From positions 1 through 64,000 of the forward strand of contig NZ_PRLC01000015.1 of the NCBI RefSeq assembly GCF_003287455.1: 64,000 nucleotides of DNA, read 5' to 3'. Under the pieces are notes generated by a model. It saw only the letters and a list, made by a program, of their open reading frames with translations. It did no database searches and was not told the origin of the DNA. Below are positions 2,813 through 18,505 of the stretch, one piece after another. This DNA is from Faecalibacterium hattorii. Its GTDB lineage: Bacteria; Bacillota; Clostridia; Oscillospirales; Ruminococcaceae. Position 1 is the first letter of the stretch, and each line of letters starts with the position of its first letter. The position numbers and the translations under genes are program-made.

Positions 2813-2889
2813 GGAGGATTAGCTCAGCTGGTTAGAGCACCTGCATCACACGCAGGGGGTCTGGGGTTCGAGTCCCTAATTCTCCACCA
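2813..2889 (+). tRNA. tRNA-Val (anticodon CAC)
   Basis: 77 nt cloverleaf with encoded CCA. Acceptor GGAGGAT/ATTCTCC pairs with one G-U. Anticodon stem CCTGC/GCAGG holds the loop ATCACAC, so the anticodon is CAC. The T-arm contains GGTTCGAGTCC. The genomic island starts directly at its 3' end, so it is the integration target. Confidence 0.95.
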
Positions 2890-2989: not shown

Positions 2990-3033
2990 GCAAAGGCAGG
3001 GTATCACTATGATAGTGGTATCCTGCCTTTTGC
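2990..3033. repeat. Conserved hairpin, copy 1 (GGCAGGGTATCAC type)
   Basis: GGCAGGGTATCAC and GTGGTATCCTGCC pair with flanking A and T runs. A near-identical hairpin in the same orientation lies at 18966-19007, just outside the island's right end. The two copies suggest duplication of tRNA-Val flanking sequence during integration. Confidence 0.65.
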
Positions 3034-3099
3034 TTTGCGGAATCAAGTTCGCTTTGTGCGAACTTGATCGCCACCTATATGGCGCATTGAGGGCAATTG

Positions 3100-3229
3100 C
3101 TGCGTACGTGCGTACCGGGAGCCTGTACACCTCTGGCAAGGTGTAACACACTAGACTTTGTTCCAAAGTCCGTGTGCTAAGGGGGCAGGCTCCTTAGAAT
3201 TCCTGTGGAGTGTGTACGCACGTACGCAG
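3100..3229. other. Nested inverted repeats with a MOB_V-like oriT
   Basis: Seen: a perfect 16-bp inverted repeat (CTGCGTACGTGCGTAC at 3100-3115, complement at 3214-3229), a nested GGAGCCTG/CAGGCTCC pair, and two inner hairpins (TACACCT/AGGTGTA and GACTTTG/CAAAGTC). On the minus strand the inner part reads TAGTGTG then TTACAC, close to the TAGTGTG/TTATAC nick region of pMV158-type (MOB_V) origins of transfer. The expected nick lies between 3147 and 3146. No relaxase gene is present in the window, so it would need one in trans. Confidence 0.55.
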
Positions 3230-3349
3230 GAAAACGGCAAAATTTCACTATATCGGGGTGTTCTTTCATTGGAGAGTATGGTATACTCGGCTTAGTTCAA
3301 CAAATCGGAATTGAGGGAGTAGGAGAAATCGAGATTGGAGGATAAGTTG

Positions 3350-3784
3350 GTGAACAAGATTTTCAAAGGTCTTATTCGATTTTTGATAGAAGTGATAGTT
3401 ATGACTGTTTTGATTGTTGGGATCAACATATTTACGAATGGTATGTATCTTTGGGGATTGCCCCGCATAAATGATATTCAGTCTGTAAATATCACGTATC
3501 CGAGTGTCACGGATGATGTTAAAGAAATTTCGAGCAGTGAGGACATTGAGTTAGCCTTAAAGCTAACGGGATTTCTGAAATATGATTTATTTGGGGAAGT
3601 GAATAGCGAAGAAGAACCCGCTATTACAATTACTTATTTTCTCAAGGATGGAACAAGCAAAACAATCTCCGCTAATAACACTACTGTCTGGTGGAACAAT
3701 AAAATTCATGTAATCAAGGACAAGGAAATGTTTGTCAACCTAACAGAGGGAATTTTCTTTCTGGAAGATTTACAAACAAAGTAA
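3350..3784 (+). CDS. DUF5301-like membrane-anchored protein
   Basis: About 144 aa. An N-terminal hydrophobic helix (FLIEVIVMTVLIVGINIF) is followed by an extracellular region with INDIQSVNITYPSVTD and ANNTTVWWNNKIHVI, the pattern of DUF5301 proteins. The chosen start is GTG 3350 with GGAGG eight bases upstream; TTG 3335 with AGGAG is a possible alternative. AT-rich compared with the host genes. Cargo of the first island segment. Function unknown. Confidence 0.7.
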   Translation: MNKIFKGLIRFLIEVIVMTVLIVGINIFTNGMYLWGLPRINDIQSVNITYPSVTDDVKEISSSEDIELALKLTGFLKYDLFGEVNSEEEPAITITYFLKDGTSKTISANNTTVWWNNKIHVIKDKEMFVNLTEGIFFLEDLQTK

Positions 3785-4031
3785 ATCAATTCCAGTTTGC
3801 TGTACTCGTTCCTAGCAGGGTTTGGGGCAGGCACGCCCCAACAAGAAGCTGTCCCAAAGGGGCAAGAATTTTCGAGAATTGAAAATTTGTGGCCACGGGA
3901 CGATTCTTGCTCTCACCTTTTTCGCTGCGTTTCGCAATTTTCACATTTCAATCTGCTCGCAGATTGTTGACAAGCTGCGCTTGACCCGATACTATAAAGG
4001 CAAGTCGAATACACGCCAAGGAGGTGCAACC

Positions 4032-5651
4032 ATGACCGCCGTGATCTACGCCCGCTATTCATCCGACAGCCAGCGTGAAGCGTCCATTGAGGGACAGCTG
4101 CGCGACTGCAAGGACTACGCCGAGAAGAACGGCATCACTGTGGTCGGCACCTACATTGACCGTGCCTACTCTGCCAAAACGGATGACCGCCCGGACTTCC
4201 AGCGGATGATAAAGGACAGCGCAAAGAAAATTTTCGATGTGGTTCTGGTCTGGAAACTTGACCGCTTTGCCCGGAATCGGTTCGATGCCGTGAACTACAA
4301 GTACCAGCTGGAAAAGAACAGTGTCCATCTGGTGTCTGCCATGGAACCCATTTCGCAGGGGCCTGAAGGCATTATGGTGGAGAGTATGCTTATTGGCATG
4401 GCGGAATACTATTCCGCCGAACTCGCCCTGAAGGTAGCGCGCGGTGAGCGCGAAAACGCCCTCCAGTGCAAGTACAACGGCGGTGTGGTGCCGCTGGGCT
4501 TCACCATTGGCAAGGAGGACAGGCTGTACCATATCGACCCGGAAACGGCTCCTATTGTGCAGGAGATCTTCAGCCGGTACGCCGACGGCGAACCGGCTGA
4601 GAAGATTGCCGCATCCCTGAATGAGCGAGGGCTGCGCACCCGCACCGGGAAGCCGTTCGTGAAGAACAGCTTCTTCCAGATTTTCCGGAACCGCCGTTAC
4701 ATAGGTGAATACCGATATAAGGACATCGTGACACCGGGCGGCATTCCCGCCATCGTGGATGAGGACTTGTTCAACCGGGTGCAGCAACGTTTCGAGCAGA
4801 ACAAGATCGCCCACGGTCGCCCTGCGAAAGAGGATGTGAGCTATCTGCTGACCACTAAACTGTTCTGTGGCAAGTGCGGCACCCTGATGGGTGGCGAAAG
4901 CGGCACCAGCCACATGGGAAACACCTACTATTACTACAAGTGCGGCAACGCCAAACGCCATGGCAAGGCGCACTGTGACCTGAAAGCCATTCGCAAGGAG
5001 CCGCTGGAGCGGTTCGTGGTGGACACCGCCATTAAGGTGATTTTTAGCGATGAAATCATCGAACAGCTGATAGATTTGGTCATGGATGCCCAGCAGCAGG
5101 AGAACACCCGGCTGCCTGTCCTGAAAGACCAGCTCCGGGACACGGAGAAGCGGCTGGCAAACCTTCTGGAAGCCATTGAACAGGGCATCCTGACCCCGAC
5201 CACCAAGCAGCGGCTGGACGAACTGGAAGCCCGGAAGGAAGCCCTGAACACCAGCATTCTGGAAGAAGAGCTGAAAAAGCCAGTCCTGACCCGCGAATGG
5301 ATGCGGTTCTGGTTTGAAAAATTCCGCAAGGGTGACATGAGGGACATGGAACACCAGCGGCAGATCATTGATACCTTTGTCAACTCGGTCTACGTTTTTG
5401 ACGACCGGGTCGTGCTCAATTTCAACTTCACGGACGATTCCAAAACCATCTCCCGTGAAGAGGTGTTGGGTTCGAGTGCTGTGGACAATGCTCCACCAAA
5501 CATGAGTCACCAACTTTGGTTGGTGGCTCTTTTTTGTTGCATTCTCGTTCGTAAGTCTGTGTGTGGAGAATTAGGAACTCGAACAGGGCGGCGGTGCGAA
5601 GCGCCGCAAGCAATCAGCCCAGTGGGCTGTTGCTTAGCCCGCGGGTCCTAG
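4032..5651 (+). CDS. Large serine recombinase (integrase)
   Basis: 539 aa from ATG 4032, behind AAGGAGGTG. Resolvase domain at about 1-150 with catalytic Ser10 in IYARYSSDSQ; recombinase domain at about 165-270; zinc ribbon with CGKCG and later Cys at about 285-320; then a coiled coil. It integrates or excises DNA by double-strand cleavage with a 5'-phosphoserine link. The last roughly 55 codons, after GSSAVDNAPP, run through the att-like repeat at 5488-5584, so the C terminus is set by the site it joined; the core protein ends near 5490. It reads toward the junction between the two island segments and is the only intact integrase in the island. Confidence 0.9.
   Translation: MTAVIYARYSSDSQREASIEGQLRDCKDYAEKNGITVVGTYIDRAYSAKTDDRPDFQRMIKDSAKKIFDVVLVWKLDRFARNRFDAVNYKYQLEKNSVHLVSAMEPISQGPEGIMVESMLIGMAEYYSAELALKVARGERENALQCKYNGGVVPLGFTIGKEDRLYHIDPETAPIVQEIFSRYADGEPAEKIAASLNERGLRTRTGKPFVKNSFFQIFRNRRYIGEYRYKDIVTPGGIPAIVDEDLFNRVQQRFEQNKIAHGRPAKEDVSYLLTTKLFCGKCGTLMGGESGTSHMGNTYYYYKCGNAKRHGKAHCDLKAIRKEPLERFVVDTAIKVIFSDEIIEQLIDLVMDAQQQENTRLPVLKDQLRDTEKRLANLLEAIEQGILTPTTKQRLDELEARKEALNTSILEEELKKPVLTREWMRFWFEKFRKGDMRDMEHQRQIIDTFVNSVYVFDDRVVLNFNFTDDSKTISREEVLGSSAVDNAPPNMSHQLWLVALFCCILVRKSVCGELGTRTGRRCEAPQAISPVGCCLARGS
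5488..5584. repeat. 97-bp direct repeat, copy 1 (tRNA-Val 3' flank)
   Basis: About 93% identical to 18833-18929. Contents in order: CTCCACCA (tRNA acceptor plus CCA); a terminator hairpin GAGTCACCAAC/GGTTGGTGGCTC with six T; then at 5564-5584 a 21-nt reverse-complement copy of tRNA-Val positions 2866-2886 with one mismatch. Acts as the internal att-like junction of the island. Confidence 0.85.
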
Positions 5652-6034
5652 ACCTGTAGGAAAGTCTACCGGGGACACGGTGCTTGCCGGAGTGCCCTTT
5701 CACCAAACGTAAGGCCGTTTACCTGAAAAGGTAAGCGGCTTTTTCTTGTATCTACGTGCTTTTTGATACGAAAAAGTGAAACGAATTCACTTTTGCATAT
5801 TGATAATGAAACGTGTAGGAGGCCCCTTTTTCAGTCGTTTGTAGCAAGTTTGTAGCAGATCTGTAGCAAAATTCGGAGAGGAACGGCAAAATGGCTCTGA
5901 AAACCCGATTTTTGCAGATTTTTGGGTGTAAAATTTTATCCTTGAATTTTGTGCAGAATGACGACGGTGCTTTTCATTCGGATTCTGATGCCGTACAATA
6001 AAGGAAAAGATCATGGATGAAAGGAGAAATCGCT
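5585..6034. other. Non-coding junction between island segments
   Basis: Holds the tail of the recombinase reading frame, a palindromic hairpin CAGCCCAGTGGGCTG at 5617-5631 (also found near tRNA-Tyr at about 40.89 kb), a terminator at 5714-5745 (GCCGTTTACCT/AGGTAAGCGGC then TTTTCTT), and three phased TGTAGCA repeats at 5840, 5851 and 5862. A 36-codon ORF from 5891 with a weak ribosome site precedes the kinase gene; its reality is doubtful. Confidence 0.6.
5714..5745 (+). terminator. Rho-independent terminator after serine recombinase
   Basis: An 11-bp stem GCCGTTTACCT/AGGTAAGCGGC with a four-base loop and TTTTTCTT. Confidence 0.75.
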
Positions 6035-7174
6035 GTGCGCTACACCATCCGGCATTTTGATTTGCCGCTGCTTACCTTTGAAGCAAACATGGACAGTGCA
6101 GATACTGGCCTCCATATTATAAAAGTCTACGAAGAAAACCGTTCTTTTCTACCTTTGAATCTGACTGTATCAGAAGATGGTGTAGAACGCTGGCTGCGGC
6201 ATCGCGCAATTCCGAAGAACCGAGCGTATGTAGACGCTCTGCTCTCTAAGGTGGGGCTTTCTTTGAATCGACCGCTTGGAATTATTGCAGCCAATAAAGG
6301 TCTTTCACTCAATGATTGCTTTTGGGTAGATGCAGAGGGCTCCGGTGACACCTTTAAAAAAGTAAATCTTTACGATAACCGATTCAGTCAGGTGCTGGCC
6401 GCAATTGCCTTTACAGGATATGGCAGTAGCATACGAACTTCGCTTGCGTCCTGCCCGGAGTTCTCGACCAACGGGATGCTGCCAAAATGCTGGCGCAGAC
6501 AAAACGGAAAAATCTATCTTTATAAAGGTGGCACGTCAGGGTTCAGCTATTTTGGATTTGAACCGTACTCGGAACTGTATGCTTATCAAGTTGCACAGGT
6601 GATGGGCGTGAATGCGATTCGCTACACCCTGACAAAAGATCTGAAAAAGACGCTTTGTTCCAAGTGTGAGCTGTTCACCAGCAAAGAGTATTCTTATATT
6701 CCCATCGGACAGCTTGTGTCCAAAGGCGGGATGAAAGCGATTTTTGCGTATTATCAGACGTTAGGTCAGAACTTTGTGGATGCGCTGGAAGATATGCTGG
6801 TCTTTGATGCGATCATCTGCAATACAGACCGCCACTATGGAAACTTTGGTGTGCTGGTAGATAATAAGACCAACACGATTGCGGCACCTGCACCGCTGTT
6901 TGACCACGGAAACTCGCTGTTCAGTTTGGGCGGAACGGATCTTTGGGACAACCAGAAAGCGTTTGATGAATATGCCCGCACACTGCTTCCGCTTGCATAC
7001 GATGATTTTTTTGCAGCTGCAAAGAGTGCAATGAAACCTCGTCACCGTGCAATGCTCCATAAGCTGCTGGATTTCCATTTTGACCGCAGAGCGACACGTT
7101 ATAATCTGCCGCCAAATCGCTTGAAGATGATCGAAAAAGAGGTACAGCGCAGAGCAAGAGTGCTTTTAGGGTGA
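6035..7174 (+). CDS. HipA/CtkA-like protein kinase
   Basis: 379 aa. The start is set at GTG 6035 by AAGGAG eight bases upstream; the ATG 18 bases earlier lies inside that site. The kinase core shows NTDRHYGNFG near residues 263-272 (catalytic Asp and Mg-binding Asn) and LFDHGNS near 288-294 (metal-binding Asp), as in the HipA C-terminal domain. HipA kinases phosphorylate Glu-tRNA synthetase or other targets and are normally held by HipB. No HTH partner gene lies beside it, only the doubtful 36-codon ORF. It could be a solo toxin kinase or phage-defence kinase. First cargo gene of island segment 2. Confidence 0.75.
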   Translation: MRYTIRHFDLPLLTFEANMDSADTGLHIIKVYEENRSFLPLNLTVSEDGVERWLRHRAIPKNRAYVDALLSKVGLSLNRPLGIIAANKGLSLNDCFWVDAEGSGDTFKKVNLYDNRFSQVLAAIAFTGYGSSIRTSLASCPEFSTNGMLPKCWRRQNGKIYLYKGGTSGFSYFGFEPYSELYAYQVAQVMGVNAIRYTLTKDLKKTLCSKCELFTSKEYSYIPIGQLVSKGGMKAIFAYYQTLGQNFVDALEDMLVFDAIICNTDRHYGNFGVLVDNKTNTIAAPAPLFDHGNSLFSLGGTDLWDNQKAFDEYARTLLPLAYDDFFAAAKSAMKPRHRAMLHKLLDFHFDRRATRYNLPPNRLKMIEKEVQRRARVLLG

Positions 7175-7179
7175 AAAAG

Positions 7180-7226
7180 AAACCGTCAAACGTAAGAGAT
7201 TGCTATCTCATGCGTTGACGGTTTTA
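7180..7226. terminator. Bidirectional terminator
   Basis: Long inverted repeat AAACCGTCAA ... TTGACGGTTT between the kinase gene and the integrase fragment, with A and T runs on both sides. The same gene-terminator-integrase layout recurs at 13.48 kb. Confidence 0.7.
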
Positions 7227-7241
7227 TGGTTTGTGGGGATA

Positions 7242-7402
7242 TTATTCTTCTGGCAGAGCCAAAACTTCATCCTTGACCAGTTGATTGGCCTTATCAAAGG
7301 CTTCGGGCTTCGATTATCTGGTTGGCTTTCGGATGGAGATAGACTTCATCCGGCGTTTTGAATTTGGGCGTGTGCCCGACAGCACGTTTCAGGATATCTT
7401 TG
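7242..7402 (-). pseudogene. Fragment of tyrosine integrase 3' end
   Basis: About 150 bp closely match the C-terminal coding end of the integrase at 13540-14300, including codons for DKANQLV and its stop codon position. A 7-bp duplication (GCTTCGG) breaks the frame, and similarity ends abruptly at about 7402. A dead remnant of a second, related integrase, left when new cargo joined here. Confidence 0.8.
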
Positions 7403-7469
7403 CACGAAAAGAAAACAGAAAAACAATAGTCAGCAGACGTAAAGCTATCATAATTTGAAACAAAAGCTC

Positions 7470-7498
7470 TTGACAGAAAGCTATTTGCAAAATATCCT
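7470..7498 (+). promoter_or_regulatory. Promoter of the nuclease-STAND gene
   Basis: TTGACA at 7470-7475, 17 bp, TATCCT at 7493-7498. The start codon is 46 bp further on. The 369-bp gap 7175-7543 otherwise holds the terminator and the integrase fragment. Confidence 0.65.
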
Positions 7499-7543
7499 TA
7501 AAAATAAGCAGAAACATTGACCTCTAAAAATAAGGAGCGGACG

Positions 7544-10500
7544 ATGGCATTTGAATTAGGCGGACGCGCTGATAAGTTTGGCAATCGATACGAACGAAGA
7601 TATTTCGTGTCTCTCATGGCAAAGGTTTTGCAGGGCGGCCTGCTGAGTGTACAGAGTGAGCCCACAGGTGACGATGAAAGCGGCACGGACATTATCGTAG
7701 AATACCAAGGCGGAAGGAAGGATTTTCACCAGTGTAAGGCACGCAACGGCAGCAATGAGCACTGGACGATGTCTGCGTTAGCACGGCATAAGGTGTTTCA
7801 GCATATCAAGGAACATGTAAAGACGGAGCAGAATCACTTTGTGTTTGTGACTGCACTTCCCTTTGTGGCGCTGAATGATTTGTGTCTGACGGCCAGAAAT
7901 TCGGACTCCTGTCAGCGCTTTGTAACGGATCAGCTGACGACGCATGACCGAAAAAATCTATTCGATCAGTGGCGAAAAAATCTTGGACTGGGAGAGACAG
8001 CAGCGGATCAGGAACAGGCTGCATTCTATCTGCGGCAGTTTGAAATATGTACGCTCAGTGATGATTCGGTAGAGGGAGATCAGTGGAAATACGTGCTCGG
8101 CAGTATGTTCACCGGGAACCCGGATGATGTCTATGATGTCCTTTTGAACCTGACGGAGAACGATAATTATGGCAAAACGCTCACGGCGGGGATATTGCAG
8201 CAATATCTGGAACAGCGGGGATACCAGCGCCGGCTTCTGGCCTCCGATACCAATATCCCACTGCAGATCGAGCGTCTGAATCATCGGTTCAAGTCCCACT
8301 TCCACCCCATCGGCGATCATCCTTTCCCCATACAGGAAGCTCACACGGTGTTGCAGACCATTCTGGCAGGCAAAAATGTTTTGCTCCTTGGCGGTGCAGG
8401 CATCGGCAAAAGTGGTTGTGTGCAAGCATTGTTGGATGAGCTGGATAATGAGCATATTCCGTACTTGGCGCTTTCAGTTGACCAAAAGGTTCCCCAAGGC
8501 ACACCGGAATACTACGGCGAAGCTTTGGGATTCAGGGCTTCGCCAGTGCTTTGCCTAGAAAGCCAGTTGGCCAGTGGTCAGATGGGCGTTCTCATCTTAG
8601 ACCAGTTGGACTCCCTTCGCTGGGCGACCCGTTCCTGCGAAGAAGCACTGGATGTCTGCGGAGAGATGCTGCGGCAGGTGCAGGCTTTGAGCTGCAGTGG
8701 AGACCGGGTTGTCCGGGTCGTTTTAGTCAGCCGCAAGTTTGACTACGAGAACGATCTGGCACTGCGCAGGCTTTGCACTCTGGCAATCCCTGAGCAGTCC
8801 GATCCCTGGGAACAGATCAAACTGCATGCATGGGACGAGGAACGAGTGGAATTTTTTGTAGGCAAAGAACGTTATGCCCGTATGCTGCCAGCCATGAAGC
8901 GCATTTTGCGAACCCCCTGTTACTTATACATCTGGCAGTTCCTGGAGGATGCACGAAAAGATAATGCGTTTACTACTCCGGTTGACCTGATGCAAGAATG
9001 GAAAACGCAGATCATTCAGCATGGAGAGCAAAAAAACATCCACGCAGATGCCATCGAGTCATTTCTAAACGCTTTACTGAGCTTGATGCAGGAAACTCCT
9101 TGTGTCCCGGAAATGGCTCTCCCGGGCAACCAGCAGGTGCAGGAATTCCTGATTTCAGAAAACGTATTATACAAAAATGAAGGCTGTTTGGCATTTGTTC
9201 ATCAAAGCATGGCCGATTACCTGAATGTAGAGTGCTGGCTGCAAGATATTCTGCACAGGAAAAAGGTGGAAGAACTTCTGCCTTCTTACAATGCCCAGGG
9301 GCCGGAATATCGGGTGCGGCTGCAGATGCTCTGGCAAGTGCTGCTGCGCGCTGGCACAACATTGTTTTTAGACAGAGCCGAAAGTTTTCTGACCAGCAAA
9401 AACATCCGCTATTATTACAAGTGTACCGTTTGGGAAGCGCTCGGGCAGATAGAGGCTCCCGGAGAAAAAATCATAGCGTTCATTCAGGCGCACTGGAATG
9501 AAGATGTCTGGAGAGAAACAATTCTGCACCGTGTTTTCTGGGGGCACAGTGCATTTATTCGGCAGTATGTAACGGCCGGGTTTGCCGCATCTTGGGCCGA
9601 CCCCACGGCGTTGTGGTTGCTGCGCCCGCTTGTAACGAGCGACCAGGCTTTTGTAAGAGAAGCGGTGCTGCCCTATATTGGAAAAACGCCGGAAAATGAC
9701 CGGAATATTTTAAGTCTGTTCTGGATGCACAAAAATCTGGAACGTCAAACGGTTGAACTATGCCTGCAGATCCTGAAAACACAGCCAGCCCTGGGGCTGA
9801 ATACCAGTGAGTACGAAGCCTGGGTGGAGACATGCCCTGATAAGGCGGTGGAATATCTGGCCCTTGCCTTTAGACAGGTATCGTCACATCAGGAATATAT
9901 CGCACCAAAATTCATGGAACTTTCCCAGAAATGCCCCAAGGGTGTATTGGAAACGCTGTGTCCGTTGGTAATTGAGGTATCCAAAGGGGAGGATGCTCGG
10001 ATGCGATGGCGAGCGTATGACAGATATTACAATGGTGTACGCTGCTATGTAAAGCTGATACAGGATTCGCTGCAGCAGCTGGTGCAGCAGGATCTTCCGT
10101 ATGTAGAAAAATTTATAGCAAATCATCTGCATACAGAATCTTGGTTGGAACATGAATGGATTTTAAAAACGCTCCTACTTTTACCGGAGCAAGACGCCAT
10201 GCTGGCCTATCAATGGCTGATGGAGAAGTTCCCGGAACACTTTCTAGACATAACGAGCCCGGAAGAGCGGATGACGACCTATGCGGCAGAGGTTCTGAAA
10301 AAGTTCTCTCCCTTCTGGTCCGATGATCAATTTGACCAAATGGAGCAGCGCATTGTTTCCAATCGCTCTCCCAATATGCTGGAAATCGCGCGAGAGCGGT
10401 TTAAACAAAAAGGATATTGGCCCTACTGGGGCGGCCTGCAGGAGACGCTTTTGCCCGCGATGGATCCAGCCAGAAGCAAAAGCAAAGCACTGCAAGCTGT

Positions 10501-12013
10501 GCTGCAGCGCCGGAAAGAGCAGGGCTTTGGAGATGTATGGTATAAAAAAGGAGGGCTCATAGAGAGCTATACCGTTCGTTCGTCCATTGCAGATCATGCA
10601 GAAAAGCTGAGCGATGCGGCATGGATCCGATTGCTCACTTCGGACATGTTGCATCTATCACCTCGTGATACCATTCAGCAGCACTTCCATCGGCCGGGAC
10701 TGGAATCCTCTCCCAGAGAGTTTGCCCGGACACTGGAAAATTTTTTCGTCACAGAGCCTTTGCGGCTGGCTGGTATTGCAGAAAAACTACCCGAGCAGAT
10801 TGATGCGCATTATTCGGCGGTAATCCTGAATGTATTCACAAAAAAAGAAGTATTTGATGCGGTCGGGTTTGAAACTGTTGAAGCCGTCGCTGAAAAATTC
10901 ACACGCTGCATGACAGCGGAGATGGATTATGAGCTGGCTTCAGGATTTTGCGGTTTACTGATCAACCACCCGGAAGCCCCTTGGTCTGCTGAAAGCTATC
11001 AGCGTCTGCGCTTTCTGGCAGTTGAGCATAAAAATCCGCAGGAAAACACATACAATATAACATCGTGTAACGACCCACAGAACAAATCCTGCCAGTGTCT
11101 CCGGGACAACGTACTGAACAGCATCCGGGGGTATGCGTTCCGAACGATCGCAGAAACTTTATGGAAGTGCCCGGAAAAAGTAGAGGATTGGAAGACCGTC
11201 CTCGAGCATGGTCTTCAGGATCCGCATCCTTCGGTTCGCTATGCCGTGATAGATGCACTTGCAGCAGTCAGTAGAGTAGACAAGCCTTTTGCCTGCGAAG
11301 GCTATTGGAAAGTTTTGCAGCAAGATCCGCGCTGCATTTTACACTATACATCCGGATGGTTTATCATGCAGCTTTACCCAGTCCATCCGGAAGAGTGCCG
11401 TGCCTGTCTGATCTGGGCATTTGAGCAGAGCGAAACGGAGCAGGATCTTGTTCGTAATGCTGCCCGTATTCTGGCTGAGCTGTGCATCAAAGGAGATCCC
11501 GATGTCCATGCCTACCTTTTCCAAAGGCAGCATATGCCAGAACAGGCCTATGGAATTTTGGATCAGTGTTTCGACGACCTAAACCAGGAGCCTAAGAACA
11601 CCGCTGCCAAGCAGCTGCTGCTTTATATACTGCAAAATTGCCAGGAGATCCCGCAGCATATCGTATGGCAGTATTGCCGGGAGCCTGGGCCTCACGATCC
11701 GGACATTTTACAGGTTTTTGTGGAACGGTGTGCAAACCGGGCTGAGTACGCTTTGATCCGCTTTTTTCTGGAGTCCAGAAAAGAAAACAGCTCTGCTTGG
11801 TGGGAAAATCTGTACATTTTTTGCGCCCGGGCCTGTGAGGATGCAACTAAGGGATATGGCCTTGCCGTCGATGATTTCTGCAAGCTTCCGTTTTTGCTGC
11901 TGGAAACAGCGGCTACTGTGCAGCAAAGAGAAAAAGCTCTGGACGTTTTTGATGAAACTTTCCGTAGCAATGTCATCCAGATGGAAGATTTTTTGCGGGA
12001 AACCAATCGATAA
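7544..12013 (+). CDS. Avs-like antiviral STAND NTPase with N-terminal PD-(D/E)xK nuclease
   Basis: 1,489 aa from ATG 7544 with AAGGAG six bases upstream. Residues 1-200: restriction-like nuclease fold of Cap4/DUF4297 type, with E17, D49 in SGTDIIVEY and Q63-x-K65 in HQCKAR. Central P-loop NTPase: Walker A GGAGIGKS at 283-290, Walker B LILDQLD ending at 356. Residues about 550-1489: a long alpha-helical repeat region without a recognised domain, the expected sensor. In known Avs proteins the C-terminal repeats bind a phage protein, the STAND module oligomerises and the nuclease degrades DNA. It sits alone behind its own promoter in a mobile island next to toxin-antitoxin genes. Architecture clear; phage target and activity are inference. 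Confidence 0.8.
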   Translation: MAFELGGRADKFGNRYERRYFVSLMAKVLQGGLLSVQSEPTGDDESGTDIIVEYQGGRKDFHQCKARNGSNEHWTMSALARHKVFQHIKEHVKTEQNHFVFVTALPFVALNDLCLTARNSDSCQRFVTDQLTTHDRKNLFDQWRKNLGLGETAADQEQAAFYLRQFEICTLSDDSVEGDQWKYVLGSMFTGNPDDVYDVLLNLTENDNYGKTLTAGILQQYLEQRGYQRRLLASDTNIPLQIERLNHRFKSHFHPIGDHPFPIQEAHTVLQTILAGKNVLLLGGAGIGKSGCVQALLDELDNEHIPYLALSVDQKVPQGTPEYYGEALGFRASPVLCLESQLASGQMGVLILDQLDSLRWATRSCEEALDVCGEMLRQVQALSCSGDRVVRVVLVSRKFDYENDLALRRLCTLAIPEQSDPWEQIKLHAWDEERVEFFVGKERYARMLPAMKRILRTPCYLYIWQFLEDARKDNAFTTPVDLMQEWKTQIIQHGEQKNIHADAIESFLNALLSLMQETPCVPEMALPGNQQVQEFLISENVLYKNEGCLAFVHQSMADYLNVECWLQDILHRKKVEELLPSYNAQGPEYRVRLQMLWQVLLRAGTTLFLDRAESFLTSKNIRYYYKCTVWEALGQIEAPGEKIIAFIQAHWNEDVWRETILHRVFWGHSAFIRQYVTAGFAASWADPTALWLLRPLVTSDQAFVREAVLPYIGKTPENDRNILSLFWMHKNLERQTVELCLQILKTQPALGLNTSEYEAWVETCPDKAVEYLALAFRQVSSHQEYIAPKFMELSQKCPKGVLETLCPLVIEVSKGEDARMRWRAYDRYYNGVRCYVKLIQDSLQQLVQQDLPYVEKFIANHLHTESWLEHEWILKTLLLLPEQDAMLAYQWLMEKFPEHFLDITSPEERMTTYAAEVLKKFSPFWSDDQFDQMEQRIVSNRSPNMLEIARERFKQKGYWPYWGGLQETLLPAMDPARSKSKALQAVLQRRKEQGFGDVWYKKGGLIESYTVRSSIADHAEKLSDAAWIRLLTSDMLHLSPRDTIQQHFHRPGLESSPREFARTLENFFVTEPLRLAGIAEKLPEQIDAHYSAVILNVFTKKEVFDAVGFETVEAVAEKFTRCMTAEMDYELASGFCGLLINHPEAPWSAESYQRLRFLAVEHKNPQENTYNITSCNDPQNKSCQCLRDNVLNSIRGYAFRTIAETLWKCPEKVEDWKTVLEHGLQDPHPSVRYAVIDALAAVSRVDKPFACEGYWKVLQQDPRCILHYTSGWFIMQLYPVHPEECRACLIWAFEQSETEQDLVRNAARILAELCIKGDPDVHAYLFQRQHMPEQAYGILDQCFDDLNQEPKNTAAKQLLLYILQNCQEIPQHIVWQYCREPGPHDPDILQVFVERCANRAEYALIRFFLESRKENSSAWWENLYIFCARACEDATKGYGLAVDDFCKLPFLLLETAATVQQREKALDVFDETFRSNVIQMEDFLRETNR

Positions 12014-12068
12014 TATAAAAACAGAAAACATCTTGTGTTGTGCATAGCGTAATTCTCATATAAAGCTC

Positions 12069-12097
12069 TTGCACGCATACTCCTGCGGGAGTATAAT
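12069..12097 (+). promoter_or_regulatory. Toxin-antitoxin promoter with overlapping palindromic operator
   Basis: TTGCAC, 17 bp, TATAAT. A perfect inverted repeat ATACTCC-TGCG-GGAGTAT at 12078-12095 fills the spacer and overlaps the -10 box. A repressor bound there would block RNA polymerase, which fits autoregulation by the HTH protein of this operon. Confidence 0.65.
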
Positions 12098-12117
12098 TAG
12101 AGCGAGGAGGTGGTTCT

Positions 12118-12795
12118 GTGGAAAAAACAATTCATCACGGTTCGGATCATATTATTGAAAAGCCAAAGTTCGGCTATGGTAAGACCTATAATGATTACGG
12201 TGTTGTTTTTTACTGCACCGAGAATCCTAACATGGCAAAAGAGTGGGGCGTTGGCATCGACCACAATGGCTACGCTAACCGGTATGAAATCGAATGCGAT
12301 GGTTTGACCATTCTGGATTTGAACGCTCCCGGTTACACGATGCTGCATTGGCTGACGATTCTTTTGGAGAACCGCGAATTCGATACTTCTGCCCCGCTGG
12401 CCGCAGAAGCCAAAGAATACCTGATGAACACTTTTCACCTCGACTATAAATCTGCTGATATCATCATTGGCTACAGGGCAGATGACAGCTATTTTTCCTT
12501 TGCATCCGATTTTATCAACGGTGCAATCTCTTACCGCCAGTTGTGCAATGCCATGCGCTTGGGCAAGCTGGGGCAGCAGTTCGTGCTGAAAAGCAAAGCG
12601 GCCTTTGAACAACTGGAATTTCTCGGCTATGAGACCGTAGACTCTAAAGAATGGTATAAGAAAAAGGCCTTCCGTGACCAGACAGCCCGCCGCCAATATT
12701 TTGACGTGGAGCGCAACCGCCGTCAGAGGGGAGACCTTTATATTACCACGATTCTCGACGAGGAGATGAAGCCCAATGATCCACGCTTACGATAA
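12118..12795 (+). CDS. DUF3990 family protein, probable ADP-ribosyltransferase-like toxin
   Basis: 225 aa from GTG 12118, behind GAGGAGG. The N terminus (HHGSDHIIEKPKF, then YGVVFYCTENPNMAKEW) matches DUF3990, a fold related to ADP-ribosyltransferases; in such folds the H-G-S/T and Y-F motifs bind NAD. The next gene overlaps it by 20 bp and encodes an HTH protein, the usual toxin-antitoxin order in Firmicutes. The toxic role and target are inferred from family and context. Confidence 0.7.
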   Translation: MEKTIHHGSDHIIEKPKFGYGKTYNDYGVVFYCTENPNMAKEWGVGIDHNGYANRYEIECDGLTILDLNAPGYTMLHWLTILLENREFDTSAPLAAEAKEYLMNTFHLDYKSADIIIGYRADDSYFSFASDFINGAISYRQLCNAMRLGKLGQQFVLKSKAAFEQLEFLGYETVDSKEWYKKKAFRDQTARRQYFDVERNRRQRGDLYITTILDEEMKPNDPRLR

Positions 12796-13435
12796 AAGCT
12801 ATCTTTCTGCTGCACAGAAAAATCTTGCCCGGATGTTGGATTATCTTGTCAACGATCTGCACTATCCGTTGGAGACGGCATGGCAGTGGTTTGTGACCAG
12901 TGAACTGTCTGCCCGGTTCGAGCAGGGGGATTGTTCTGCGTTGGTGGGCTTGTCCGGTGTAGAACTTGCCCGCGCTGTATTGGAGCAGGCGGGCGAAGCC
13001 GTGCCCATGCAGAAACCCTCGTATGCCTACGACCGCAGCCCGGAATACTGGACAGGCTGGGCTCTTGCCTATTACCAGTGGCTGACCAGTTTGCGCTTTG
13101 CGGAGATTGAACAGGCAGTGTCTATCACGAAAGTGCGGCTGCTGTATACGCCCTACCACGAGATGGATGTACGGCAGTTTGCAGACAAGATGAACGAGTT
13201 GTACCGTGCGGCAAAGCCGGAAACAAACCTGAAAGCCATGCGCACATTGGCCGGATTGAGCCAATCGGAACTGGCAGGGCAGGCTGATGTGCCTGTGCGT
13301 ACCATCCAGCAGTACGAACAGCGACAGAAGGACATCAACAAAGCACAAGCAGAAACGCTGCTTCGCCTTGCGCGTGCGCTGAATTGCAACGTGGAGGATC
13401 TGATAGAGAAAGTTCCACCGCTGAATTTTAAATAA
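12776..13435 (+). CDS. HTH regulator, probable antitoxin of the DUF3990 pair
   Basis: 219 aa. Residues 1-140 form a helical domain (MLDYLVNDLHYPLETAWQWF), probably for toxin binding. The C-terminal XRE HTH at about 150-215 contains LAGLSQSELAGQADVPVRTI and EQRQKDINKAQAETLLRLA. It starts 20 bp inside the toxin gene behind GAGGAG, so translation is coupled. The palindrome in the upstream promoter is its likely operator. A terminator follows. Confidence 0.7.
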   Translation: MIHAYDKSYLSAAQKNLARMLDYLVNDLHYPLETAWQWFVTSELSARFEQGDCSALVGLSGVELARAVLEQAGEAVPMQKPSYAYDRSPEYWTGWALAYYQWLTSLRFAEIEQAVSITKVRLLYTPYHEMDVRQFADKMNELYRAAKPETNLKAMRTLAGLSQSELAGQADVPVRTIQQYEQRQKDINKAQAETLLRLARALNCNVEDLIEKVPPLNFK

Positions 13436-13479
13436 GAATGAAGCGATGAGACCTGACACAGATTGTGCAAACAAAAAAG

Positions 13480-13528
13480 AAAGCTGCCATCCATGAGAGA
13501 AAAATTCTCACGGATCGGCAGCTTTTCT
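13480..13528. terminator. Bidirectional terminator
   Basis: AAAGCTGCC/GGCAGCTTT stem with inner GAGA/TCTC pairing between the antitoxin gene and the convergent integrase, A-rich on one side and T-rich on the other. Confidence 0.7.
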
Positions 13529-13539
13529 CTTTGAAGTTG

Positions 13540-14300
13540 TTATGCCTTCGTTGTGGTCAGAACTTCATCATTGACCAGCTGATTGGCCTTATCAAAGGCT
13601 TCGATCATCTGGGTTGCTTTCGGATGGAGATAGACTTCATCTAACGTTTTGGATTTGGGCGTGTGCCCGACAGCGCGTTTCAGGATATCCTTGTTGACGC
13701 CTGCGCGGTCACAAAGGCTGGCGTAGGTATGGCGGGTGGTGTAGGGCGTATAGGTGGCGAGCTTCCCGGTAAACTCCGGCTTGCGCTTACCATTTTCGTT
13801 GTAAGGATTCGGCTGGATGCCGATTTCCTCCAGGAAAGGATAGAACTTGCGGTTACGCCAGTTCTTTTCGTTCCAGAAACCGCCTTTTCCATTGGGAAAG
13901 AGCGGACCGTTTTTCACAGAGGTGGCATACGCATGTTCAAAAACCGGAATGCCAAAGTCGAGAATGGGAATGATGCGGTTGCGTCCGGCCTCGGTCTTGC
14001 AGCCGCCGATCAGATAAGCACCGGATTCCGTGCGGTGAAAATCTTCGTGTTTGAAGTGCAGCAGCTCATAGATACGCACTCCGCAGGCCAGAAGAGCAAT
14101 TACCATCTGCCCGGTGGGCGTGTCCTTTTGGTTCAGGATCAGCGTCACCTGTTCGTCCGTGAAAATCTCGCGTTCCGGAGATTTGCGTCCTTCGACTTTC
14201 AGGACAGATGCAAGGTTGGCATCCACGACACGCCAGCCAATGGCTGTGCGATACAGCTTATCTTCGTGATAAAAATATGGCGATAGATGTACAGATCTCT
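13540..14300 (-). pseudogene. Tyrosine recombinase (integrase), 5'-truncated
   Basis: The C-terminal catalytic domain is intact in frame: Arg in ACGVRIYELLHF, His-x-x-Arg in TTRHTYASL, His in VGHTPKSKT and the nucleophilic Tyr in LDEVYLHP. The N-terminal arm-binding and core-binding domains are missing. Upstream of about 14300 the sequence switches to a serine resolvase in another frame, and no proper start codon or ribosome site serves the integrase frame. An inactive remnant whose 3' end is duplicated at 7242-7402. Confidence 0.75.
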
Positions 14301-14543
14301 GATATCGTACAGAGTAAAACCTTCTTCTGCATTTCTGGACATCCGGGACACTGAATCGAACACCACCGTATCTCCTGCTTTCAGAACCCGGTAGAGCTTC
14401 AGCCACTCCGGGCGAAAGATGGATGTGCCAGTGTAGGCTTCCTGCACGATGTGGGCAGTCGGGTACTCGGCCTTGATGTTGCGGATTTGGCGGTCAATGC
14501 TCTGTTTTGCCGTAGAGATGCGGCAATAGCCATAGATGTTCAT
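14301..14543 (-). pseudogene. Serine resolvase N-terminal fragment
   Basis: Starts at ATG 14543 behind AAGGAGC: MNIYGYCRISTAKQSIDRQI, then FDSVSRMSRNAEEGFTLYD, the catalytic domain of a resolvase/invertase with Ser in CRIS. After about 80 residues it joins integrase DNA out of frame and stops at 14199. No HTH domain remains. A deletion fused it to the tyrosine integrase. Confidence 0.75.
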
Positions 14544-14666
14544 TGTGCTCCTTTCTGGCTCAAAGATAACGAGCGACATTTTTAAGACTGTGTTTTGCAC
14601 CTTGAAATGGTCTGAAAACGGCTGATTTTAATACAAAACAGAATATACGGTATTTTTAATACAGTT

Positions 14667-15017
14667 TTAGTGGGCATAGGCAGTCATAAAATCAGAAATG
14701 GTAGTGCACGGTTTGTGATTGGCGGTGTCCTCGCCATCCAAAGGAGCGTAGTTCCAGTCGGTGTCCTCGTCAATATATCGCCGCCCATCATCCGGCAGTT
14801 CCAGCGGTTCCGCAAGAATAATGGTGCCCCAGTGGTTGACCATCACAAAGGGCGCGATCTCACAAGGGATGCCCCGGCACTCGTCATCATGCCGAACATC
14901 GTAGGCGTACAGACCATCCGGAATGGTATCTCTCTTGATGCGGATGCTGGTGAACAGCGCAGGCTTTCCGCAAACTGTAATCTCCTCGTAGTGTTCGGTC
15001 ATTGCATTAAAGGTCAT
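14667..15017 (-). CDS. LPD28-like domain protein
   Basis: 116 aa: MTEHYEEITVCGKPALFTSI near the N terminus, then YAYDVRHDDE and MVNHWGTIILAEPLEL, the pattern of LPD28 domains of large polyvalent proteins in conjugative elements and phages. TAAGGAGGA precedes the ATG. It follows the DUF3846 gene by 12 bp in the same operon. No enzymatic motif. Indicates an ICE or phage origin for this segment. Confidence 0.65.
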   Translation of the reverse strand: MTFNAMTEHYEEITVCGKPALFTSIRIKRDTIPDGLYAYDVRHDDECRGIPCEIAPFVMVNHWGTIILAEPLELPDDGRRYIDEDTDWNYAPLDGEDTANHKPCTTISDFMTAYAH

Positions 15018-15029
15018 AATCTGTCCTCC

Positions 15030-15368
15030 TTAGATTTCAATGATAAAAGCTCTGAATTTCTCTTTGTAGAAATCCATTGTACTCTGCGGCAGGGAAGTCA
15101 GATTCCCTTCGTTGTCACATCCGGCCAGAAATCCCGGCCCAGCAAGAACATCGGCTCCATCCCACAGCGGACGATTGAGCGGCAGGCCAAGCAGCTTGCC
15201 TTCATCATTGCAGACCAGTGTGACCGCTGAACCGGTGTCACTCAATGTGATGCATTCGATCAGCCCGCCTACAAAGTTCTGCATGGCTTCAAGGGTGTTG
15301 TCCAGTTCGATCTCCTTTGGCAGCTCCATTGGCAGGAGCGCAAGGACTTTGATTTTTTCGTCTTTCAC
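15030..15368 (-). CDS. DUF3846 domain protein
   Basis: 112 aa from GTG 15368, behind GGAGG. Core: EIELDNTLEAMQNFVGGLIE, then TLVCNDEGKLLGLPLNRPL and DVLAGPGFLAG, the DUF3846 pattern found in ICE and phage accessory operons, often near anti-restriction and LPD proteins. Function unknown. First gene of a short operon with the LPD28 gene. Confidence 0.7.
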   Translation of the reverse strand: MKDEKIKVLALLPMELPKEIELDNTLEAMQNFVGGLIECITLSDTGSAVTLVCNDEGKLLGLPLNRPLWDGADVLAGPGFLAGCDNEGNLTSLPQSTMDFYKEKFRAFIIEI

Positions 15369-15466
15369 TGTGTGCCTCCAAATAAAAACAGGACAATCCA
15401 CGCGGACTGTCCTGCAAAAGTAAAGGGAGAGCATCCGAAGACGCTCCCCCCTAAGTCATATACAGT

Positions 15467-16336
15467 TTAGTTGATGCCAAGCTCTTTCATAAGCTTGTCA
15501 CGGTATGTTTCGTCTTCAGAAGCCCGCTTGACATCTTCAATACGGCTCTGATCGAGGAGCTTCTTAACAAGAAGTGCCATTTGATTCTTGCCTTCGATTT
15601 TACCTTCAGCTTTTCCTTTGTTTTCCACTTTATCAAGCACATCACACATATTGCGTGGGCCTCCTTTCTGGCCATCGGTATTGGTATTATACGCTTTCTC
15701 AAACCGATTATCATTCGTCATAATACTCAGCAGTTGAAGCGTTTCCTGCACATGGGTCAAATCCTGTGAACTCGGAATGTAGTCGCCGTTTTCCTGCTTC
15801 TGCACAAAGTAGTCTGCCACGACCTTAAAATCGCTCTGGAAAAGCTCTACCTGCTCGTGGGTCAGATAGGCGATCTGGAACAAGTTGATCTTATAGTCGT
15901 TGACATACGGCTCAAATTCTTTTGGAATGTTCAGTCGCTCTTTCAGGGAAAGCGGCCCGTTCCACGGTTTATCATGGCCGAAGTAGAGTACCAGCGTCAC
16001 AACGGGATAGAGATTTTCGCTATCACCAAGTAACTGCGCCCGGTACTCTGCGCCATCGTAACCGATGACACGGAGCGGCATATTGGGGTCAGAAGCGGTC
16101 TGGTTTTCAAAACCGATACAGGCCACGCGAATATTTCCGTTCTTCCAGCGTTTGGCAACATCTCGCTCGATCTCACGAATCCTGCCATCTGCCTTGTAGT
16201 AGGAGCGTGGAGCCTGATCTTCCAGTTCATCCGCAGACAGAACTTGTTTGCCGTTGAACAGAAGCACATTCACAATGTCCGAAAAGACATCGTTATAGGA
16301 TTCCAGAATTTTTTCAGATGTATCCTTTTGCGCCAT
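15467..16336 (-). CDS. Rpn-family PD-(D/E)xK nuclease / putative transposase
   Basis: 289 aa. Rpn-type features: an N-terminal ILESYNDVFSDIVNVLLFNG segment, a nuclease core with RVACIGFENQT, and a Lys/Glu-rich C-terminal helix (NKGKAEGKIEGKNQMALL). Family members promote RecA-independent recombination by DNA cleavage. The start ATG 16336 has AAGAAGGTG upstream. It lies between the recombination gene and the DUF3846 operon. A second, divergent Rpn gene is at 49.1 kb. Confidence 0.75.
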   Translation of the reverse strand: MAQKDTSEKILESYNDVFSDIVNVLLFNGKQVLSADELEDQAPRSYYKADGRIREIERDVAKRWKNGNIRVACIGFENQTASDPNMPLRVIGYDGAEYRAQLLGDSENLYPVVTLVLYFGHDKPWNGPLSLKERLNIPKEFEPYVNDYKINLFQIAYLTHEQVELFQSDFKVVADYFVQKQENGDYIPSSQDLTHVQETLQLLSIMTNDNRFEKAYNTNTDGQKGGPRNMCDVLDKVENKGKAEGKIEGKNQMALLVKKLLDQSRIEDVKRASEDETYRDKLMKELGIN

Positions 16337-16401
16337 GCCATCACCTTCTTTTCTCTTGTTATTATAGTAGCATACGGCTGTGAAATTTACAAGCATTTGC
16401 C

Positions 16402-17112
16402 TTATGCTACGTTCAATCTGGTTGCCTTATAGCAGTCTGCGCACATCCCCTCATGGGTGGCTGCAAACTCTGCCGCCTGCATGATGGAGCCGTCCTTCAG
16501 CTTGACCCTCTTGATGGGCTGGTTGCAGCGAGCGCAGATGCAGGGCACAGGCGGCTGTTCCTGCTTCGGGGTAGAGGATTTCGGCTTCGGCTGCTTTTGC
16601 GGTTCTGCCTCCGGCTGCGGTGCGGCATCCTCCGGCAAATCCTCTCCGGCGTAGACATACAGACCCAAGCCGAACATAGCAAGGTTCTTTACCAAGCACC
16701 GCATGATAGCTTTATTCACATCGAACATGGAGGCTGCTTCTACGGTACGTTCTTCCATGCCGATCTTTTCACGGCGGCGGGTCTGCGGATTGTAGTCCCA
16801 TTTCGTGGTGGTGTAGGTGTAAGGCACAGCTTTCATGGCTTTGTTTGCGCCATCCAGTACAGGCAGCCACATTTTGTGCGAAACGCCCTCAATCGTGACA
16901 GTGGTATACACCATGAAGCCGGTTATGGGATCATAAACATAGGGCAGGCCGTTAAATTTCTTGACTTCGTAGCTGGCAGAAGGATACAGCTTTTTCACCT
17001 CTGCCCAAGCGTACGCCCAACTTACATATTTCAGTTCCGTGTTGCCGGACTTTTTGACTTCCAGATGATCTTTGAAGTCGATAGCAAATAATTTTACGAA
17101 TGGATTTTCCAT
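16402..17112 (-). CDS. Single-strand annealing protein, DUF1071/Sak3 type
   Basis: 236 aa from ATG 17112, behind GGAGG. Residues 1-150 match the DUF1071 pattern (YVSWAYAWAEVKKLYPSA, then VDGANKAMK-like and VNKAIMRCLVKNLAMFGLGL). A Pro/Lys-rich linker leads to a C-terminal zinc ribbon (CARC ... CADC). Such proteins anneal single strands in phage or ICE recombination with a partner exonuclease, here the truncated YqaJ at 18.5 kb. An ATPase gene now separates the pair. Confidence 0.75.
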   Translation of the reverse strand: MENPFVKLFAIDFKDHLEVKKSGNTELKYVSWAYAWAEVKKLYPSASYEVKKFNGLPYVYDPITGFMVYTTVTIEGVSHKMWLPVLDGANKAMKAVPYTYTTTKWDYNPQTRRREKIGMEERTVEAASMFDVNKAIMRCLVKNLAMFGLGLYVYAGEDLPEDAAPQPEAEPQKQPKPKSSTPKQEQPPVPCICARCNQPIKRVKLKDGSIMQAAEFAATHEGMCADCYKATRLNVA

Positions 17113-17139
17113 AAGAATGCCTCCAATTCTGATAAAGAA

Positions 17140-17171
17140 AAAAGGGCACAACAGCGTCAACTGTTGTGCCC
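17140..17171 (-). terminator. Terminator of the AAA ATPase gene
   Basis: GGGCACAACA/TGTTGTGCCC stem followed on the minus strand by six T. Confidence 0.75.
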
Positions 17172-17184
17172 CATGATGTGAAAA

Positions 17185-18384
17185 TTACGGATTGAGCAGA
17201 AAATCAATGATGTTTTGATGAATGATTCCGTTTCGGCTTAAATTCATCAAATCACCACTGATAACATACTTAGGATAGTTGTCGTGCAGCCGCTCAAGAT
17301 TACCGAACTCCCGTTCTTCATCGGCGGGAGTGATCAGGTAAGCAACCTGAATATAGAGCTTTTCATCTCCACGGTAGCAGATAAAATCAATTTCGGTGTC
17401 GTCCAGCTTGCCGACCTGAACTTCATAGCCACGGCTCCGCATTTCCAGATATACGATGTTCTCATACAGCTTGTTGCTGTCAGGTTTTTCGCTTTTCTTG
17501 ATAACGTTCCGTAGGCCAAGATCGACTGCATAGTACTTTTCTGTGCTGGACAGGAGCGCTTTTCCTTTGATATCATAGCGGCTTGCATTCAGAAGGATAA
17601 AGGCTTCCTTGAAATAATCAACGTAGTTCAGTACGGTAGCAGTGGTTGTCTTGATTCCTTCCGAAACCATGCGTCCACTGATATTACGGGCAGAAAACGG
17701 ATTGCCGATATTGTCCAGCAGGAATGCAAGGACATTACGTAATGCGGTCTGTTCGCGAATATTGTGGCGCAGCATGATGTCACGGACAATGATAGCCTCG
17801 TAAAGATCGTCCAGATAGGTGGTGATTGAATGATCGTCAGGGAGGAAGAAACGCTGCGGAAAACCGCCGTACTTCAAATAGTCTGCGAAGAGCTTTTCAT
17901 CCGAAGTATAGGTTCCGTTTTCAATGCATTGCTGTTTTGCTTCGGCCAGCGAAAAGGGGAAAACTTGAATCTGGATGTATCGTCCGGAAAGATAGGTTGC
18001 CAGTTCGCCGGAAAGCAGCTTGGAATTGGAGCCAGTCAGGTAAATATCACAATCGAAATCGACACGAAGAGAATTGATTGCAATCTGCCAGCGCTCCACC
18101 TCCTGAATCTCATCCAGAAGAATATAGATTTTGCCGGTGCAGCCTTCCGCTTTTTTTGCGATGTAGTCGTAAAGCGTTTCTGCAGTACGGGTGTTGCGGA
18201 AGCGCATGGACTCAAAATTGGCCTGAATAATGTTCTGTGCGGGAATGTTGCGCCGGAGGAGCACGTCCTTGATCTGACCGAGAAGGACTGTTTTTCCACA
18301 GCGCCGGATTCCAACCAGAACTTTGATCAGATCCTGATCGATAAAAGGAATGATCTTATCCAAATAACTTTTGCGCAGAACCAT
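17185..18384 (-). CDS. AAA-type ATPase with DUF4143 domain
   Basis: 399 aa. Walker A GIRRCGKTV at about residues 25-33, Walker B KIYILLDEIQE near 85-95, sensor LTGSNSKLLSGEL near 115, then a C-terminal DUF4143 nuclease-like region (YENIVYLEMRSRGYEVQVG ... EIDFICYR). A common, poorly understood ATPase family of gut bacteria, sometimes linked to toxin-antitoxin or recombination functions. It has its own terminator and probably its own promoter, and interrupts the sak3-yqaJ module, so it is an insertion. Confidence 0.8.
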   Translation of the reverse strand: MVLRKSYLDKIIPFIDQDLIKVLVGIRRCGKTVLLGQIKDVLLRRNIPAQNIIQANFESMRFRNTRTAETLYDYIAKKAEGCTGKIYILLDEIQEVERWQIAINSLRVDFDCDIYLTGSNSKLLSGELATYLSGRYIQIQVFPFSLAEAKQQCIENGTYTSDEKLFADYLKYGGFPQRFFLPDDHSITTYLDDLYEAIIVRDIMLRHNIREQTALRNVLAFLLDNIGNPFSARNISGRMVSEGIKTTTATVLNYVDYFKEAFILLNASRYDIKGKALLSSTEKYYAVDLGLRNVIKKSEKPDSNKLYENIVYLEMRSRGYEVQVGKLDDTEIDFICYRGDEKLYIQVAYLITPADEEREFGNLERLHDNYPKYVISGDLMNLSRNGIIHQNIIDFLLNP

Positions 18385-18505
18385 CGTGCATCACCTCATA
18401 TTCTTATCTTAGCATACAATTATTGTTGTGTAAACAGTATTGTGCTTTTATATTAAATAAAAATAGCTGAATCACGAATTTTGTGTGCCTATAGGCGCAC
18501 AAAAA

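Follow-up and report, generated by a model that had tools for sequence, protein, structure and literature searches.

What does a protein of 1489 residues do that joins a nuclease-like head to an ATPase-like centre and a long helical tail, and does it belong to a known family of antiviral receptors? The question is raised by a single gene (7544..12013) in a stretch of 64,000 nucleotides of Faecalibacterium hattorii DNA (contig NZ_PRLC01000015.1, positions 1 to 64,000 of the forward strand), hereafter called the window. The reading that we favour, with a probability of roughly 70%, is that this gene encodes a single-protein defence switch of the STAND type that is armed with a nuclease. Judging from sequence comparisons, it is probably a conserved new branch of nuclease-STAND defence whose design is ordinary, such proteins being typically built from an effector, a switch and a sensor.

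Domain organization of the protein

The open reading frame (ORF) proposed at this place in the initial annotation is real: it has 1489 codons, AAGGAG stands ahead of its ATG, and the motifs that had been quoted (D49, Q63-C-K65, GGAGIGKS at 283–290 and LILDQLD at 350–356) are all found at these residues. Statements about the family refer below to A1, an alignment and profile of eight full-length family proteins, three of which are near-identical Faecalibacterium alleles. The features of the gene and of its product, including the central nucleoside triphosphatase (NTPase), are as follows:

7532..7537, + strand: probable ribosome-binding site AAGGAG, 6 nucleotides upstream of the ATG (sequence; homologues begin at the same place or a few residues off)
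7544..12013, + strand: gene of the nuclease-STAND protein, 1489 amino acids, one ORF with its ATG at 7544 and the last base of its stop codon at 12013 (aligned with 93% identical alleles and with full-length homologues of 22–26% identity)
7544..7948, + strand: Cap4-like PD-(D/E)xK nuclease domain, residues 1–135, boundary approximate (hhalign against eight Cap4 proteins; LmuA profile)
7688..7690, + strand: D49, presumed metal ligand, D or E in the family (alignment; opposite the invariant D56 of Cap4)
7730..7738, + strand: Q63-C64-K65, presumed catalytic QxK (invariant in 12 of 12 sequences; aligned to the QxK of Cap4)
8330..9253, + strand: STAND-type NTPase with winged-helix part, residues 263–570, boundaries approximate (weak AAA_16 match in 7 of 8; conserved motifs)
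8390..8413, + strand: Walker A, GGAGIGKS, residues 283–290 (A1 alignment)
8591..8611, + strand: Walker B, LILDQLD, residues 350–356 (A1 alignment)
8732..8755, + strand: R397–D404 motif (RxxDxEND), presumed sensor region of the NTPase (A1 alignment; RDFDKHYD at the same place in the PDB entry 9n00, discussed below)
9194..9208, + strand: F551–S555 (FVHQS), winged-helix motif (A1 alignment; FGHQT in 9n00)
9254..12010, + strand: C-terminal helical region, residues 571–1489, presumed sensor (sequence variability; helical periodicity)
11144..11272, + strand: HEAT_2 match, residues 1201–1243 (Pfam, E = 1.3e-6)

By profile comparison, the N-terminal domain is a Cap4-like (DUF4297-type) nuclease, as had been proposed. 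When an alignment of 12 N-terminal sequences was compared with eight Cap4 proteins by hhalign, a probability of 79% was obtained over 128 columns (E = 1.6e-5 for this single pairwise comparison), with D and QxK aligned in the Cap4 arrangement. A nuclease of the Mrr type was rejected, the control against eight Mrr proteins giving 1.4%. Q63-C64-K65 is invariant in A1 and position 49 is D or E; E4, G6, G7, A9, K11, G13, E17 and E39 are among the other invariant positions of the N-terminal part. The PADLOC LmuA model matches residues 45–208 of the window protein (E = 1.8e-4) and three of the eight A1 members in all, and the Pfam Cap4 model PF14130 matches 3 of the 12 members with E ≤ 5, the lowest value being 0.003. 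The D...QxK nuclease domain is thus shared with Cap4 and LmuA (DUF4297 group), and in the window protein it is fused to a STAND part; elsewhere this nuclease is driven by other sensors, namely SAVED in Cap4 and the SMC-type LmuB in Lamassu.

The central NTPase is of the STAND type on the evidence of its motifs and of weak profile matches (AAA_16 in seven and nSTAND3 in one of the A1 members). All the features of such a switch, i.e. P-loop, Walker B, a downstream R motif and a winged-helix F.HQS, are present in 8/8, where the P-loop, D353-Q354-L355-D356, R397, D400, E402-N403-D404, F551 and H553-Q554-S555 are invariant; the FVHQS segment is what we take to be the winged-helix motif of STAND proteins. 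A classical NACHT Walker B has D, a small residue, a hydrophobic residue and two acidic positions, whereas DQLD is found in all eight proteins, and Pfam NACHT gives E = 0.22 for the window protein. Of the DUF4297/Cap4 and STAND profiles whose comparison the initial annotation proposed, Cap4 is found by hhalign at 79%, AAA_16 matches weakly in 7/8 and PF14130 stays below its cut-off.

The tail is the variable part of the protein. Mean pairwise identity among the distant homologues is 41% in the NTPase, 35% in the nuclease, 25.5% in the linker (residues 136–262) and 21–26%, depending on the region, in residues 571–1489. In our own test of hydrophobic-moment periodicity against shuffled sequences, helix is favoured in all four stretches of 571–1489 (fractions of 0.73–0.86 versus 0.46–0.48 in the shuffles, z = 2.7–4.2), the same signal being weaker in the nuclease (z = 0.6) and in the NTPase (z = 1.3); a helical signal of this kind does not prove repeats. 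HEAT_2 is matched by 4/8 A1 members. The initial annotation had described about 900 residues of helical repeats, which is plausible: helical periodicity extends across the whole tail, but the HEAT_2 profile recognises only residues 1201–1243 of it. It had also found no known sensor domain, and none was recognised in the window protein by our Pfam, PADLOC and NCBIfam profile scans. The variability and the helical periodicity together suggest that the tail acts as the sensor.

The three Faecalibacterium alleles are under purifying selection, their pairwise ratios of non-synonymous to synonymous substitution rates (dN/dS) being 0.19–0.27, and dS varies between regions from 0 to 0.47. This pattern reads as constraint together with mosaic exchange between alleles, and not as fast evolution of the tail at this scale. 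Diversifying selection on the tail was rejected (dN/dS of 0.09–0.54 in the C-terminal regions). Values of 0.83–1.67 are confined to the nuclease region, where they are not meaningful because they come from one or two synonymous changes.

Comparison with known defence systems

STAND proteins consist of an effector, an NTPase and a sensor, and the nucleases of Avs1–4 cut phage and host genomes upon encountering terminase, portal or another phage protein (PMC12931631, in part). The window protein has the effector–NTPase–sensor order of Avs1–Avs4, provided that its tail is indeed the sensor. PADLOC models were run on nine full-length members and NCBIfam, which contains Avs2, on the window protein. 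No Avs model of PADLOC matched any of the nine members, and NCBIfam gave no Avs match to the window protein; each of the two libraries presumably holds all five Avs types. As positive controls, the same PADLOC library recognised Avs3a (E = 6.8e-117) and Avs1b (E = 8.9e-39) in other Clostridia, at the loci L063 and L064, respectively. Membership in Avs1–Avs5 was rejected on these grounds. Comparison by hhalign with an Avs3a homologue (16%) and with an Avs1b-like protein (5%) involved a single sequence each and is a weak test. 'Avs-like', the term used in the initial annotation, can thus be kept for the domain order and for the probable mode of action, but not for family membership (0/9 members match Avs models).

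Both control loci (L063, 3354–8300; L064, 4151–10255) encode clostridial nuclease-STAND proteins. The head of the Avs3a protein also has a weak Cap4 match (E = 2.6e-4), and that of the L064 protein resembles Cap4/SAVED-type effectors on an Avs1b-like NTPase. A protein of 1315 residues at L065 (3417–7364), with an LmuA/DUF4297-type head, a P-loop-like motif and no Avs match, possibly belongs to another unclassified nuclease-STAND family.

As far as profile matches indicate, the family is not wholly unassigned, since it touches both a catalogued candidate and a solved structure. The candidate is PDC-M54A of PADLOC (the letters PDC presumably meaning phage-defence candidate): PDLC04702 matches 8/8 and PDLC04700 6/8 of the A1 members, at collinear positions in the window protein, which it matches weakly and locally (E = 2.8e-7). 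A search of 245 genomes of the class, in which at most two candidates per genome were scored, short P-loop matches dominated and the window gene itself was missed, gave no protein with a stronger match to PDC-M54A.

The structure is an 'AAA family ATPase' of 1523 amino acids (PDB 9n00, 9n01 and 9yix), which is probably a collinear, distant homologue. The A1 profile matches 9n00_A with E = 4.7e-22 over nuclease and STAND parts, and a second, weak match sets residues 1203–1321 of 9n00_A opposite positions 1206–1321 of the profile, in the HEAT region. Its D, QCK..W, P-loop, Walker B, RDFD and HQ motifs are kept as in the window family, and the 9n00 fragment also matches PDC-M54A (PADLOC, E = 3e-9). 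The protein is too distant for a single-sequence search, phmmer with the window protein not listing it at E up to 1. A literature search, mainly outside subscription journals, returned no paper naming 9n00, 9n01, 9yix or PDC-M54, and nothing useful came from looking for new Avs types.

A model for the tail is offered by DSR2, a Sir2 protein with HEAT repeats, whose HEAT-containing C-terminal region binds a phage tail tube protein (PMC11263360, in part). The effector of DSR2 is a Sir2 NADase, unlike the nuclease found here, and a STAND NTPase is absent from the description of DSR2 in that part of the source.

Distribution and neighbours of the family

The distribution of the family is patchy. 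Alleles with 93% identity occur in 2 of the 30 other genomes of the genus, G005 and G025 (3/31 with that of the window; the G005 allele was retrieved as L001, L003 and L022 and is counted once). Full-length, partial or broken members were found in 6/391 genomes of a class sample (that of the window, G073, G166, G292, G115 and G275) and in 5/398 of a phylum sample (that of the window, G073, G789, G809 and G815). Each tally had initially been seven: an unrelated P-loop match in G205 (E = 1.0e-4, 79 residues) is not counted in the former, and partial matches in G652 (STAND part only) and G630 (a 572-residue frame resembling 992–1290) are not counted in the latter. The copy in G115 is short at its end. 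A small Planctomycetota plasmid carries a homologue of 1543 residues, so that the family spans Bacillota and one Planctomycetota plasmid. One further homologue (L019), on an IMG/VR contig, was detected with the A1 profile, and the same contig was the sole match of a DNA-pattern scan. Scans of viral contigs with P0001, A2, A3 or the plasmid homologue returned nothing further, and none of 50,697 phage records matched the window protein or the L019 homologue.

Some relatives of the window protein stand beside restriction or SoFic genes. The gene in G073 is neighboured by a type IV restriction pair, a weakly LmuA-like protein and a weak PDC-S31 match; SoFic lies beside G789 and beside the near-identical loci of G292 and G115, the last of which also has a type I R protein. 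Tail-sheath genes are found within 6 kb of the homologues in L019 and G809. A second STAND-like protein (weak ATPase_2, nSTAND6 and nSTAND3 matches) is encoded at 2922–4964 of L019, about 3 kb from the prophage-borne homologue.

A conserved partner gene was rejected, as none besides the STAND gene is consistently common to the 12 loci, and the system therefore looks single-gene. The neighbours that do recur are Fic proteins (about 26% identity between G789 and G292/G115), a serine recombinase (23% identity between the window and L019), genes of two-component systems (near L019 and G115), the tail-sheath genes already mentioned, a protein of 37–41% identity (near G789, G809 and G292) and restriction proteins resembling each other (G073 versus G115).

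Proposed mode of action and alternatives

In the uninfected cell, the protein would be held off in a nucleotide-bound form. Upon infection, the C-terminal helical tail would bind a trigger, most likely a phage protein; the NTPase would then, by analogy with Avs and NLR proteins, exchange its nucleotide and oligomerise, and this would gather the Cap4-like nuclease domains, with the result that DNA is cut and either the cell is killed or the phage is stopped. The sequences compared show in what order the domains stand, the invariant nuclease and NTPase motifs, the relationship to Cap4, the variability of the tail, purifying selection, mobile carriage, patchiness and the defence neighbours in several lineages; everything in this scheme beyond the domain order we infer. 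If it is true, the nuclease-STAND immune receptors of human gut bacteria would gain a separate branch, and the trigger is, to our knowledge, known for few defence proteins of this group; the solved relative 9n00 and the 93% identical Faecalibacterium alleles make the question of the trigger a testable one. A bolder version is possible, and we put it forward tentatively: the family would be one more type of antiviral STAND receptor with a nuclease, alongside Avs1–4, present in Bacillota and on one or more Planctomycetota plasmids, with mobile regions and prophages as its carriers, and its HEAT-type tail would recognise a phage structure that is read by none of the Avs families.

Several observations weigh against a defence switch of this kind: (i) hhalign comparisons with two single Cap4 proteins were not significant (0.2% and 2.5%), and Pfam PF14130 remains under its cut-off for the window protein (13.0 bits versus 26.2, E = 0.12); (ii) residues 1201–1243 are the only significant HEAT stretch that Pfam finds in the window protein; (iii) the tail displays no excess of amino-acid change among the alleles; (iv) the genes in G275, G815 and G809 carry internal stops or frameshifts, which fits costly defence genes but equally simple decay; (v) the neighbours analysed (17 ORFs near homologues and 5 in the window) were chosen by hand, none at random, and have no background rate; (vi) those in G166 match only part of a reverse transcriptase–protease model and 30 residues of E1-E2, with two further ORFs unmatched, and the single neighbour ORFs at G275, G815, L019 and G809 gave no match; and (vii) no clean empty site of the mobile region described below was found in G020 and 12 further congeners.

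The natural target might also be a competing plasmid, conjugative element or transposon, the protein serving its carrier element or prophage by the same inner working. Such a role would suit a gene in a recombinase-bearing mobile region with homologues near phage tail-sheath genes and on a small plasmid. We consider it rather unlikely: chromosomal homologues adjoin defence genes, and the nearest catalogued candidate, if its PDC name is taken in the sense given above, is filed as a candidate for phage defence. More doubtful is a tail that reads DNA, or a complex bound to DNA, directly, which would make the protein an ATP-gated enzyme akin to restriction enzymes. HEAT-type solenoids are able to bind nucleic acid, the nuclease is Cap4-like and one homologue has a type IV restriction pair next to it, but Pfam finds no DNA-binding domain in the tail, no partner gene is consistently shared, and what is conserved are motifs of a STAND switch and not of a helicase; this we regard as quite improbable. 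The idea that the protein is a STAND regulator of some unrelated cellular process can be given very little credit, although bacterial STAND proteins have mainly been studied as transcriptional regulators (PMC7159879, in part), since the QxK of the nuclease is invariant, the distribution patchy, the context mobile and no neighbour consistently shared.

The mobile region

The features of the window that surround the proposed defence switch are as follows:

2813..2889: tRNA-Val(cac)
3032..18960: mobile region of about 16 kb, ends approximate, between tRNA-Val(cac) and the fab genes (GC content; recombinases; comparison with G005 and G025)
3822..5651, + strand: large serine recombinase (Pfam Resolvase, E = 2.7e-30)
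6017..7174, + strand: HipA-like kinase, 385 residues (PADLOC candidate PDC-M03A, E = 5.6e-15)
12118..12795, + strand: DUF3990 protein (PDC-M42A; Pfam E = 6.4e-39, PADLOC E = 9.2e-37)
12776..13435, + strand: HTH_3 (helix-turn-helix) protein, weakly PDC-M42B-like (Pfam, PADLOC)
13540..14406, − strand: tyrosine recombinase (Pfam Phage_integrase, E = 3.7e-6)
from about 19038: fab genes, this side being conserved in the genus

That the gene sits in a mobile region, an 'island' in the words of the initial annotation, is supported by a low GC content (48.8% in 3032–18966 versus 60.7% in 19030–64000), by the two recombinases and by a different location in G025. In G005, the tRNA side and the region up to about 14260 are in common with the window, and the fab genes are on another contig. 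In the complete genome of G025, the tRNA-Val DNA is at 413160–415080, the STAND gene at 554543–559009 and the fab genes at 2543164–2545603. The two flanks of the mobile region are thus about 2.1 Mb apart in G025, i.e. sites lying far from each other there are brought together in the window, and the block with the gene (7263–14260, 96% identity) occupies a different chromosomal place. The HipA gene had no DNA match in the G025 stretch compared.

An 'empty site' noted in the congener G020 was withdrawn, because the tRNA there is tRNA-Val(gac) and not the tRNA-Val(cac) of the window; among 12 further congeners (L090–L101), none has a tRNA in the examined stretch before fabZ. The odds given above are unchanged by this withdrawal, since mobility is argued from G025, from the recombinases and from the patchy distribution.

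A few other features of the region may be recorded. The DUF3990 gene and the HTH gene overlapping it (12118–13435) look like a toxin–antitoxin pair. Direct repeats of the 3′ end of the tyrosine recombinase gene (7260–7402 and 13558–13693, 91–93% identical in ungapped parts) flank the STAND, DUF3990 and HTH genes, and the outer copy is longer in G025 (L021, 15152–15384), as if a cassette of three genes had been inserted at the 3′ end of the recombinase gene. At 14199–14600, the beginning of the tyrosine recombinase frame is overlapped, on the same strand, by an N-terminal fragment of a serine resolvase, which gives the impression of two recombinase genes that have become fused or cut. A second pair of direct repeats (5488–5584 and 18833–18929, 93%) terminates in part of the 3′ end of tRNA-Val, oriented oppositely to the tRNA at 2813–2889, and these may be attachment sites of a further element within the region. 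Finally, two copies of a hairpin, 88% identical, are found after tRNA-Val(cac) (2992–3031) and before fabZ (18967–19006), and a similar hairpin stands in G020 after tRNA-Val(gac) and before fabZ.

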